Positions 58,573-64,000 of a stretch of DNA of 64,000 nucleotides are shown here, in pieces. The first letter of the stretch is position 1; the number at the start of each line of letters is the position of its first letter. The stretch is from Alkalinema sp. FACHB-956 (lineage in GTDB: Bacteria > Cyanobacteriota > Cyanobacteriia > Leptolyngbyales > Leptolyngbyaceae): contig NZ_JACJRC010000002.1 of assembly GCF_014697025.1 (NCBI RefSeq), positions 186,001-250,000 of the forward strand. Direction: 5' to 3'. Under the pieces are notes generated by a model. The model saw only the letters and a program-made list of their open reading frames with translations. It was not told the DNA's origin and ran no database searches. Made by a program: the position numbers and the translations under genes.

Positions 58573-59046
58573 ATGTCATCATTGCCCCCCTCCTCTTCGG
58601 ATGTCTCTCTAAATCCTGATGGCGATCGGCCTGCTGGAGCAATGGCGGCTGAGGCGATGAATTCCGAAAGCAGGGAGACAGAGGTGGATTTTGAGCAGGA
58701 ATTGCAAGCGATCGAAACCTCCCTCCAGGCGCTCAAAACCCGTCACGCCGAAGTCCAAGCAGCTCAGCAACAGAAAACGCAGCTCTTGGAACAGCGCGAT
58801 CGGCTCGACTCCCAGTCCTCCACCTTCAAGGCAGAACTCCAGGCGATAGATCGGCAATTGAGCGAATTAGAATTTACCCTAGAAAGCCGTCTCTTTTCCT
58901 GGGCGGGGGTGCGGGAGTATTTCTGGCAGGCGGTACGGTTTGGCGGCTTGGGGCTGGTGATTGGCTGGACGTTGGCCTATGGGGTGCTGAAACAACCCGC
59001 GCAAACGCCGAATGCACCTTTGGAACGGCAGGAAATCCCCCAATAA
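58573..59046 (+). CDS. Coiled-coil protein with C-terminal membrane helix
   Basis: 157 residues. A disordered acidic N terminus (1-40) is followed by a coiled coil of about 70 residues (FEQELQAIETSLQALKTRHA, then QLLEQRDRLDSQSS, then IDRQLSELEFTLES). After SRLFSWAGVREYFWQAVRFG one membrane helix follows (LGLVIGWTLAYGVL) and a short polar tail. The C-terminal placement of the helix makes it a tail-anchored protein with the coil in the cytoplasm. No known family; it is 150 bases upstream of asnS on the same strand, without a functional link. Confidence 0.75.
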   Translation: MSSLPPSSSDVSLNPDGDRPAGAMAAEAMNSESRETEVDFEQELQAIETSLQALKTRHAEVQAAQQQKTQLLEQRDRLDSQSSTFKAELQAIDRQLSELEFTLESRLFSWAGVREYFWQAVRFGGLGLVIGWTLAYGVLKQPAQTPNAPLERQEIPQ

Positions 59047-60733: not shown

Positions 60734-63700
60734 ATGACTGCATCCATTCCAACCCTCGCCAGCCAATACGAATCCAAAACCACCGAAGCCAAGTGGCAAG
60801 CCTTTTGGGAGGAACATGCAGTCTTTCAGGCCGATCCGTCCCAGCCCGGAGAGATGTACTCCGTGGTGATTCCGCCACCTAACGTGACGGGAAGCCTGCA
60901 CATGGGCCATGCCTTCAACACCGCGTTGATCGATACGATCGTGCGCTACCAGCGGATGTTGGGCAAAAATACCCTCTGTTTGCCGGGAACTGACCACGCC
61001 AGCATCGCTGTGCAAACGATCTTAGAAAAGCAACTGAAGGCCGAAGGCAAAACGCGGGATGACCTAGGTCGTGACGCATTCCTAGCCCGTGCTTGGGAGT
61101 GGAAAGCTGAATCCGGCGGCACTATTACCAACCAAATGCGGCGACTGGGCTTTTCCGTGGATTGGTCGCGGGAACGCTTCACCCTGGATGAGGGACTCTC
61201 GAAGGCTGTGTTGGAAGCCTTTGTCAAACTCTACCAAGAAGGCTTGATCTATCGCGGTAATTACCTGGTCAACTGGTGCCCCGCTAGCCAATCTGCCGTG
61301 TCGGACTTGGAAGTGGAGAACCAGGAAGTTAACGGCAACCTCTGGCATTTCCGCTATCCCCTCACCGAAAGCGATGGCTACATTGAAGTCGCCACCACCC
61401 GCCCGGAAACGATGCTGGGGGATACTGCTGTGGCCGTCAACCCCAACGACGATCGCTACAAACACCTCATCGGTCAAACGGTACTGCTGCCGCTACAACT
61501 GCGGGAAATTCCCATCATTGCCGATGAGTACGTCGATGCGAGCTTTGGGACCGGCTGCGTCAAGATCACCCCGGCCCATGACCCCAACGACTTTGAGATG
61601 GGCAAGCGCCACAACCTGCCGTTCATCAACGTCATGAATAAAGACGGCACGATGAATGAGAATGCCGGTGACTTCCAAGGACTCGATCGCTTTGAAGCCC
61701 GCAAGCAAGTCGTGGAAGCCATGGAGCGGGAAGGCTGCCTGGTGAAGGTGGAAGATTACAAAACCACGATTCCCTACAGCGATCGGGGTAAGGTGCCCGT
61801 GGAGCCGATGATTTCAACCCAGTGGTTCGTCAAAATCGATCCGCTGGCTCAGACGGCCTTGAAAGCGCTGGATGAACAAAATTCACCGGAGTTTGTCCCC
61901 GATCGTTGGAAAAAGGTCTACCGCGATTGGCTGACGAGCCTGCGCGATTGGTGTATTTCCCGTCAGTTGTGGTGGGGCCACCAGATTCCCGCATGGTATG
62001 CCGTCAGCGAAACCGGCGGCGTGATTACTGACAGTACTCCCTTCTTTGTGGCCTACAGCGAGGCCGAGGCTCGCCAGCAGGCGATCGAGAAATTCGGGGA
62101 AGGAGTGCAGTTGGAACAGGATCCGGATGTGTTGGATACCTGGTTCTCGTCGGGTCTCTGGCCGTTTTCCACCCTGGGTTGGCCTAGTCCCGATGCAGAA
62201 GATTTCCAGCGCTACTATCCCACCAGCACCCTGGTGACGGGCTTTGACATCATCTTTTTCTGGGTGGCGCGGATGACCCTGATGGCGGGCCACTTCACCG
62301 GACAGATGCCGTTTAAGCATGTTTACATCCATGGTCTGGTACGGGACGAAAAAGGCCAGAAGATGTCCAAGTCGAAAAATAACGGCATTGACCCGCTGGT
62401 GCTGATTGAGAAATACGGTACCGATGCCCTGCGCTACACCTTAATTAAGGAAGTGACGGGGGCAGGCCAGGACATTCGCTTGGAATACGATCGCAAAACC
62501 GATGAGTCTCCCTCGGTGGAGGCCTCCCGCAACTTCACCAACAAGCTGTGGAACGCTTCACGCTTTGTGTTGATGAACCTGGATGGGCAAACGTCGGAGC
62601 AATTGGGCGCACCGGATCCCGCTAGTCTGGAACTGAGCGATCGCTGGATTCTCTCCCGCTACAACCAAGTCACCCAAGCGGTGCGGCAATCCCTGGACAA
62701 CTTCGGGTTAGGGGAAGCAGCTAAGTTGATCTATGAATTTTTCTGGGGTGATTTCTGCGACTGGTACATCGAACTGGTCAAGTCCCGCCTCCAGGGGGAA
62801 AAGAATGATTCCCGCAGCGTGGCCCAGCAAACCCTGGCGCTAGTCCTGGAGGGCACCCTGAAGCTACTCCATCCCTTCATGCCTCACATCACCGAGGAAA
62901 TTTGGCACACCGTTGTCCAGAAAGACCCGGCGACCGGGATCAGTCTGGCGTTGCAAGCCTATCCCACCGTTAACGCGACTTTGATTGATGCGGATTTGGA
63001 AGCGCAGTTCGAGTTAATCATTGGGGCGATTCGGACGGTGCGCAACCTGCGGGCTGAGGCAGGGATCAAACCCGGTGAAAAGATCGAAGCCATCCTGCAA
63101 TCGGAAAGCGATCGGGAACGGAAAATCCTCATTGCTGGTCAGAAGTACATCCGTGACTTGGCCAAGGTCAAGCAATTAACGATCGTAGATCCCCAGGCCG
63201 CCCCGGCGATCGCGGCAACGGAAGCCCCCAGCCCAGCACCAGCACCTAGCCCCCCCCCCCAGCCCACCGCTGCCCCCACCGCCCCCACCCTGCGAATCAC
63301 CAACCGCAAACCCTGGAGCGAAAAGACCTGGCAGGAAAAACTGGAAATCCGAGATGCCGTGGCCACCGTGACCGACTTCCTGGGTCAGCACCGTAAGTTC
63401 CTGTTGACGATCGGTTCTTTTGGATTGATTTACTTCACCCTCAGCGTCACCCTTGCCTCTATCCGGACGGTGTATCAGGTACCTTTACTGTCGGATCTTC
63501 TGGAAGTGCTGGGACTGGGCTATGCCGTGTTCTATACCAAGGACAACCTGCTGACCCGCGCCGATCGCCAACGCACCTTCGGTAAACTGCGGCAACTCAA
63601 GGATGATGTGTTGGGCAATGGTCTACTGTTACCCCAATCGGCGGTGGTGGAGACCGCTCCCGCAGCCCTAGCCCCAGAAGTTGCGCCGGAAGCCGCCCCA

Positions 63701-64000
63701 GCGACTGAAGCCACTGATCCCGCACCGGAATCCACCGAGCAATCCAGCGATCGGCTAACGTCTGATCGACAAATGTTCGCGGGCGTTGTGGGTACTGTGC
63801 AAGTTCTGATCCCCCTAGCGGGCCTCGTAGATATTGCAGCGCTCACTGCCAAACTGGAGAAGGATCTCAAAAAAGTAGAAGCGGAAATTCAGTCCCTTTC
63901 CGGGCGCTTGCAGAATCCCAAGTTTGTGGACAAAGCCCCGATCGAGGTGGTGCAGGGGGCAAAAGAGGCCCTCGCAGAGGCGGAGAAGCAAGCAGAACTC
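60734..64000 (+). CDS. valS: Valyl-tRNA synthetase with inserted membrane CAAD domain (3' end beyond window)
   Basis: 1,089 codons are present and the frame is open at the window end. Class I motifs: the HIGH form in [13 protein letters not shown] (residues about 46-58), [11 protein letters not shown] (about 543), editing-domain [16 protein letters not shown]. After the anticodon-binding domain (to about 825) comes a Pro/Ala-rich linker (830-855). A CAAD module (about 856-965) follows, with two hydrophobic helices, [20 protein letters not shown] and [13 protein letters not shown], and then a second Ala/Pro/Glu-rich linker. The normal ValRS C-terminal coiled coil resumes at [20 protein letters not shown]. 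The enzyme charges tRNA-Val; the CAAD helices should place it on a membrane, probably the thylakoid. Only a short tail is missing. Confidence 0.96.

Follow-up and report, generated by a model that had tools for sequence, protein, structure and literature searches.

A valyl-tRNA synthetase with a CAAD domain inserted ahead of its C-terminal arm in Alkalinema sp. FACHB-956

Alkalinema sp. FACHB-956 encodes a valyl-tRNA synthetase (ValRS) with an internal CAAD domain. We confidently assign it to the CAAD-bearing ValRS enzymes (ValRS-C) with an insertion near position 820, and expect it to be anchored to a membrane by the predicted CAAD hairpin. The gene lies at the end of the window, the whole stretch of 64,000 nucleotides that was analysed. 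The identity of the domain, its position, the intact reading frame, the single gene copy and the relatives of the enzyme are established. Insertion into the membrane and a hairpin topology are expected, and a thylakoid location is suggested by analogy with Anabaena. The initial annotation of this ValRS was confirmed and its interpretation was correct; the enzyme is a further example of a kind that is already known.

The open reading frame starting at position 60734 on the forward strand (assembly coordinates L003:2735-6028) encodes a complete ValRS of 1097 residues with its own stop codon. The frame is open to the window edge and the stop lies 27 bases past the window end, at window-equivalent 64025-64027. 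NCBIfam names the product valine--tRNA ligase (NF004349/TIGR00422, well above the cut-off). Pfam finds, in order, tRNA-synt_1 (residues 20-583), Anticodon_1 (636-787), CAAD (878-961) and Val_tRNA-synt_C (1033-1095), so that the host of the CAAD is a whole class I synthetase with the domain in the same frame. The features of the gene are as follows.

60734..64000, + strand: valS, valyl-tRNA synthetase with internal CAAD, 1097 residues (ORF, Pfam, NF004349/TIGR00422)
62639..63094, + strand: Anticodon_1, anticodon-binding domain, residues 636-787 (Pfam)
63188..63301, + strand: first linker, Pro/Ala-rich, residues 819-856 (alignment; model pLDDT ~50)
63250..63260, + strand: run of 11 C (C11) within the first linker (homopolymer count in the assembly)
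63302..63361, + strand: Trp-rich stretch of 20 residues, 857-876 (pattern common to the window gene and three MAGs of genus g146)
63365..63616, + strand: CAAD domain PF14159, residues 878-961 (Pfam)
63392..63475, + strand: first hydrophobic helix, residues 887-914 (hydropathy and AlphaFold model)
63488..63550, + strand: second hydrophobic helix, residues 919-939 (AlphaFold model)
63557..63616, + strand: C-terminal CAAD helix, residues 942-961 (AlphaFold model)
63617..63766, + strand: second linker, Ala/Glu/Pro-rich, residues 962-1011 (alignment, AlphaFold model)
63830..64000, + strand: tRNA-binding arm Val_tRNA-synt_C, residues 1033-1095, the last residues lying beyond the window (Pfam)

The initial annotation had placed an insert of about 180 residues between the anticodon-binding domain and the C-terminal coil. 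The insert is found there, at residues ~819-1011 (~190 residues), and consists of a Pro/Ala linker, the CAAD and an Ala/Glu/Pro linker. The described composition of Pro/Ala linker, two hydrophobic helices and Ala/Glu linker is borne out, the second helix by profile and model only. Assignment of the insert to CAAD was upheld by Pfam, where PF14159 matches with E 6.9e-15 and 55.1 bits against a cut-off of 30.7 and covers profile positions 2-85 of 85; the same domain scored 60.4 bits in a genome-wide profile search. Since the profile match is above cut-off and the same insert occurs at the same place in 19/42 genomes of family f1, to which the window genome belongs, the CAAD insert is not a chance resemblance. 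The domain does stand ahead of the C-terminal coil and not at an end of the protein, yet this is not unusual: internal CAADs at ~750 or ~820 of ValRS are already published (PMC4893482, which credits the site data to a 2011 JBC paper).

The C11 run in the first linker was examined because a frame error near 63250 would break the insert. No such error is present, as the flanks of the run share one frame and are conserved in relatives, and body, CAAD and arm are read in a single frame. With conserved sequence on both sides of the run in the same frame, a slip of one or two bases cannot have created the insert; an error in run length by a multiple of three may exist. A frame error or assembly artefact as the source of the insert was rejected with near certainty. 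All that favors it is a homopolymer adjoining the insert, while the frame is intact on both sides, the architecture recurs in 18 other f1 genomes, and shifts that are not a multiple of three are refuted.

We also considered whether C11 could act as a slippage switch, yielding a soluble short ValRS of 878 or 887 residues beside the anchored form. The run lies in the linker, and it is one of only 9 runs of at least 10 C on either strand of the 6.16-Mb assembly. Both other frames stop early, and the shifted frames after C11 would end at 878-879 or 886-887 residues, before the CAAD and the arm. However, a run of at least 7 C or G occurs in 0/18 of the other ValRS-CAAD loci of family f1, and the switch is therefore given little credit. 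Runs of at least 9 occur in only 2/80 named relative loci (L186 and L191), both of which encode CAAD-less ValRS. The short forms would also drop the tRNA-binding arm, in an enzyme that is essential and encoded by a single gene, and CCC proline codons in a Pro-rich linker could by themselves produce such a run. Slippage at C11 is very improbable. Longer C runs than that of valS were seen elsewhere in the assembly, namely 13 C at G000:C2:185429-185441, ~560 bases before the window, and 21 C at G000:C21:11470-11490.

Residues 780-1089 were modelled with AlphaFold from 32 alignment rows (mean pLDDT 71, pTM 0.26). The model contains helices at 866-885, 887-914, 919-939 and 942-961; the linkers are low-confidence or disordered and the arm is confident. 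The order of helices in the insert (helix, two hydrophobic helices, helix) is presumably that of CURT1. Within the insert only the first hydrophobic helix reaches the threshold of 1.6 in a 19-residue hydropathy window, and the second is predicted from the CAAD profile and the AlphaFold model, not from plain hydropathy. A sequence search of solved structures with the CAAD part gave no usable relative (best E 7.9), and a fold search with the whole C-terminal model gave none at E 0.001 or better, the best being 1gax, a ValRS. The hydrophobic moment of the first helix was not above that of shuffled sequences, 0.37 of which reached it, and amphipathicity of this helix was not indicated.

Immediately before the CAAD is a Trp-rich stretch described by the pattern W-[ASG]-[DE]-[KR]-[STA]-W-x(1,4)-E-[KR]-L. 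Among all ORFs fetched by that point the pattern was found in the window gene and three g146 genes only, and a related, longer form is present in G414. Because the stretch is conserved in a small clade while the surrounding linker is not, it probably has a function, perhaps at the membrane surface. The amphipathicity of its helix was not significant in a shuffle test.

These features suggest how the enzyme may be held. A Curt1-related CAAD, comprising a pre-helix, a two-helix hairpin and a C-terminal helix, would have been spliced through two flexible linkers before the C-terminal arm. The hairpin would enter the membrane and return, leaving both the catalytic body and the arm in the cytoplasm. 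Return to the cytoplasmic side seems obligatory because the arm that follows the hairpin has to meet tRNA. The benefit could lie in charging tRNA close to where membrane-bound translation takes place, or in a coupling to ATP synthase.

The genome was searched for other enzymes that might be anchored in the same way. CAAD occurs at two places (E 0.001 or better): this ValRS, and a stand-alone protein of Curt1 type with 144 residues on contig C21, which matches PF14159 alone with ~101 bits. CAAD was not found in other synthetases of the genome at E 0.001 or better. The gene for ValRS is single, with one PF10458 (arm) place and one TIGR00422 place over the cut-off; matches to TIGR00422 below the cut-off are ileS and leuS (NCBIfam names), a 561-residue frame and the ValRS arm itself. 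By analogy with Anabaena, the cell would keep its whole ValRS pool at a membrane, most probably that of the thylakoid. The initial annotation had proposed that tethering is enzyme-specific, with ValRS on a membrane and the neighboring AsnRS soluble. This is a fair inference from the domain content, since no other synthetase has CAAD and Pfam finds only an OB fold and the class II core in the adjacent AsnRS. Two other proteins are encoded nearby. Upstream of asnS, window positions 58573-59046 encode a member of the sll0565 family (NF052612), whose 157 residues seem by eye to form a coiled coil and to include one hydrophobic stretch. Past the window, 325 bases after valS (L003:6353-6832), a 159-residue ORF has a sub-threshold match (90 bits, cut-off 200) to the N-terminal part of HmpF.

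Family f1 comprises 42 genomes, 19 with CAAD in a ValRS frame of 1025-1125 residues and 21 without CAAD in ValRS; the ValRS of G392 and G394 is fragmentary and these two were left out of the split. The insertion site is identical in 19/19 ValRS-CAAD genes. A tree of ValRS bodies was built from 106 rows with the insert columns masked (quick search, LG+G4), excluding duplicate loci and rows scoring <900 or <600 residues long. The three g146 loci (L092-L094) were labelled by hand as site-820, as our own Curt profile missed two while Pfam matches all three. In this tree 18/19 of the f1 ValRS-CAAD bodies form one group (SH-aLRT 99), within which the window ValRS belongs to a group of five with the three g146 MAGs and G414 (support 99). 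The remaining one, G060, falls among CAAD-less rows. A tree of CAAD alone (145 rows, 83 columns, FastTree) was not used for origins, being short of columns and drawing long branches together. Close relatives with and without the insert inside one family provide natural tests of what the anchor does. Two further loci were noted. Family member G411 has a 757-residue ArgRS frame with CAAD at 547-619 (L091, G411:C66) and a ValRS without CAAD. At L254 (G443:C71) a ValRS-CAAD frame is broken by one in-frame stop between CAAD and arm, beyond which the arm continues in the same frame; the stop may be a sequencing error or may mark a truncated enzyme.

The CAAD of the window enzyme is divergent. It is 32-45% identical to the CAADs of its relatives, against 76-78% for the ValRS bodies (three pairs), and the g146 relatives have matches that are weaker still (Pfam E 1e-8 to 1e-11, partial in 2/3). 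Given a score of 55-60 bits vs ~101 for the stand-alone protein, the low hydropathy of helix 2 and the weak g146 matches, weakened or altered membrane binding is possible. We asked whether the CAAD might be a decaying remnant that is still read in frame but has stopped serving as an anchor, leaving the enzyme partly or fully soluble. The divergent score and low hydropathy, the weak matches in the nearest relatives and the absence of the insert from half of f1 ValRS (21/42) would fit decay. But the frame is open and the match spans nearly the whole profile, and members of the small clade have retained the pre-hairpin stretch but not the linker around it. Moreover, CAAD outpaces the body in 2/4 f1 pairs with normal CAAD scores (body vs CAAD identity of 81 vs 50% for L078/L079 and 94 vs 81% for L083/L085); L079/L087 is in between (92 vs 82%) and L078/L076 hardly differs (88 vs 84%). 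Decay is an unlikely account, and a membrane-anchored ValRS-C is preferred.

A hydrophobic insert without CAAD was found at the 820 site in the ValRS of Oscillatoriophycideae cyanobacterium NC_groundwater_1537 (L180:4629-5255). It gave no Pfam match up to E 10 in a search where the HMMER filters remove most matches above ~0.1. A class-wide search found relatives of this insert in 4/388 genomes, all in family f5. A ValRS match was obtained in 35/36 f5 genomes, and 30 loci, one a genome, were inspected. With our own profile 25/30 have a clear Curt/CAAD match in the insert and 4/30 have none, and one locus is a 79-residue fragment. The CAAD-less inserts of these three or four species (G466, which is L180, G474, G545 and G594) are hydrophobic and ~30-35 residues long. 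They are also listed as loci L207/L211, L209/L210 and L212, and L222, which is broken. Pfam CAAD is absent from the inserts of G466, G545 and G474 and from the fragment of G594, a 68%-complete assembly with its ValRS gene in pieces that counts for little.

In the 106-row tree the ValRS body of L180 groups with CAAD-bearing L138 and L147 (support 97). In the first f5 tree (44 rows) L222, which has a long branch, stood with L211 and L212 apart from the 41 remaining rows (95), and L210 was placed elsewhere. This result speaks against nesting, as three of the four CAAD-less rows are not nested. When long or poorly filled rows were removed (27/44 kept), L211/L212 and L210 were nested among the CAAD-bearing f5 rows, at two separate positions (82 to 93); a single clade of the three was not rejected (p-AU 0.398). 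Because the resolving trees place CAAD-less ValRS bodies among CAAD-bearing ones, CAAD in f5 would have been eroded to a minimal hydrophobic element or else exchanged for one. The L180 insert is modelled as one 34-residue helix. It may form a re-entrant loop; with a single membrane crossing the arm would end up on the wrong side.

These inserts and the divergent CAAD of the window clade could be remodelled anchors, with selection on ValRS keeping the anchor and not the CAAD sequence. We lean against this idea and offer it tentatively. If it is true, tethering would be independent of the CAAD surface for which binding to ATP synthase has been reported. Relatives with another hydrophobic insert in place of CAAD would allow membrane location to be told apart from possession of CAAD. 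No mention of a CAAD-less hydrophobic insert in ValRS was found among the entries listed by literature searches. These inserts (4/30) and the Trp-rich pre-hairpin stretch of the window clade are small new details, and anchor remodelling is the only lead beyond the known kind.

Insertion sites were compared in the numbering of the CAAD-less ValRS L197. The window CAAD is inserted at ~820, one of the two published sites. Among ValRS-CAAD rows of the tree set, 48/57 have the insert at ~816-831 and 9/57 at ~746-750; no third site was seen in the aligned rows. In an even sample of 68 genomes of the class with a full CAAD listing, CAAD lies within a frame of >900 residues in 25, comprising 22 ValRS and three IleRS (ileS named by NCBIfam). 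One of the IleRS, in G005, is a borderline CAAD match (31.7 bits, 26.5 in a second scan). The next longest CAAD frames are 356, 293 and 220 residues, too short for such synthetases or, by eye (356 and 293), Curt proteins with a long N-terminal part. The full listing of the 68 genomes showed no CAAD in class II or oligomeric synthetases or in those of other kinds. These counts agree with a 2016 survey, which reported at least one CAAD synthetase in 102/279 species, with ValRS in 79 and IleRS in 11, and CAAD borne by class I monomeric enzymes only (PMC4893482). With the window ValRS, the known group of cyanobacteria in which a single synthetase, most commonly ValRS, is tethered to a membrane gains a divergent member.

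Other hosts met among the examined genomes were GluRS-C (L034), ArgRS-C (L091), a known rare type, and IleRS-C in 3/68. In family f11 (L034-L038 and L040-L042), genus g15 has a GluRS-CAAD fusion (GluRS named by NCBIfam for L034); in genus g49 a curt1-like gene lies close to gltX within one fetched stretch (NCBIfam name of gltX for L040). The fused and neighboring states fit the origin by gene fusion that PMC4893482 proposes. A protein of 301 residues at L095 (G402:C1:1331149-1331403) joins CAAD/Curt1 to Polyketide_cyc (cyclase/lipid transport).

In Anabaena, CAAD puts ValRS on thylakoids, and the remaining 19 synthetases were soluble (PMC4893482). According to the same paper, deletion of CAAD makes ValRS soluble with little change in kinetics, and CAAD also carries ValRS to E. 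coli membranes. ATP synthase (FoF1) subunits co-purify with Anabaena CAAD, and no change in the ATP level was seen (PMC4893482). The membrane location of ValRS is restated for heterocysts in PMC11500504. In our alignments Nostocaceae and Calotrichaceae rows (L141, L145, L153, L154, L159 and L165) stand in for the Anabaena PCC 7120 ValRS.

Like the ValRS-C of Anabaena sp. PCC 7120 and others (PMC4893482), the window enzyme has its CAAD inside the chain, on the C-terminal side of the catalytic core, at ~820, one of the two sites. As with ValRS-C of other cyanobacteria, the window genome has a single ValRS gene, with a stand-alone Curt1-type protein encoded elsewhere. The window enzyme differs in that its CAAD has diverged, its linkers are long (insert ~190 residues) and the hairpin is preceded by a Trp-rich stretch confined among fetched ORFs to a small clade. 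IleRS-C, GluRS-C, ArgRS-C, LeuRS-C, CysRS-C and MetRS-C (listed in PMC4893482) carry the same module but differ from ValRS-C in host and insertion point. The curvature proteins Curt1/CURT1 (CurT) share PF14159 with the window ValRS, but they are small free-standing proteins and not part of a synthetase.
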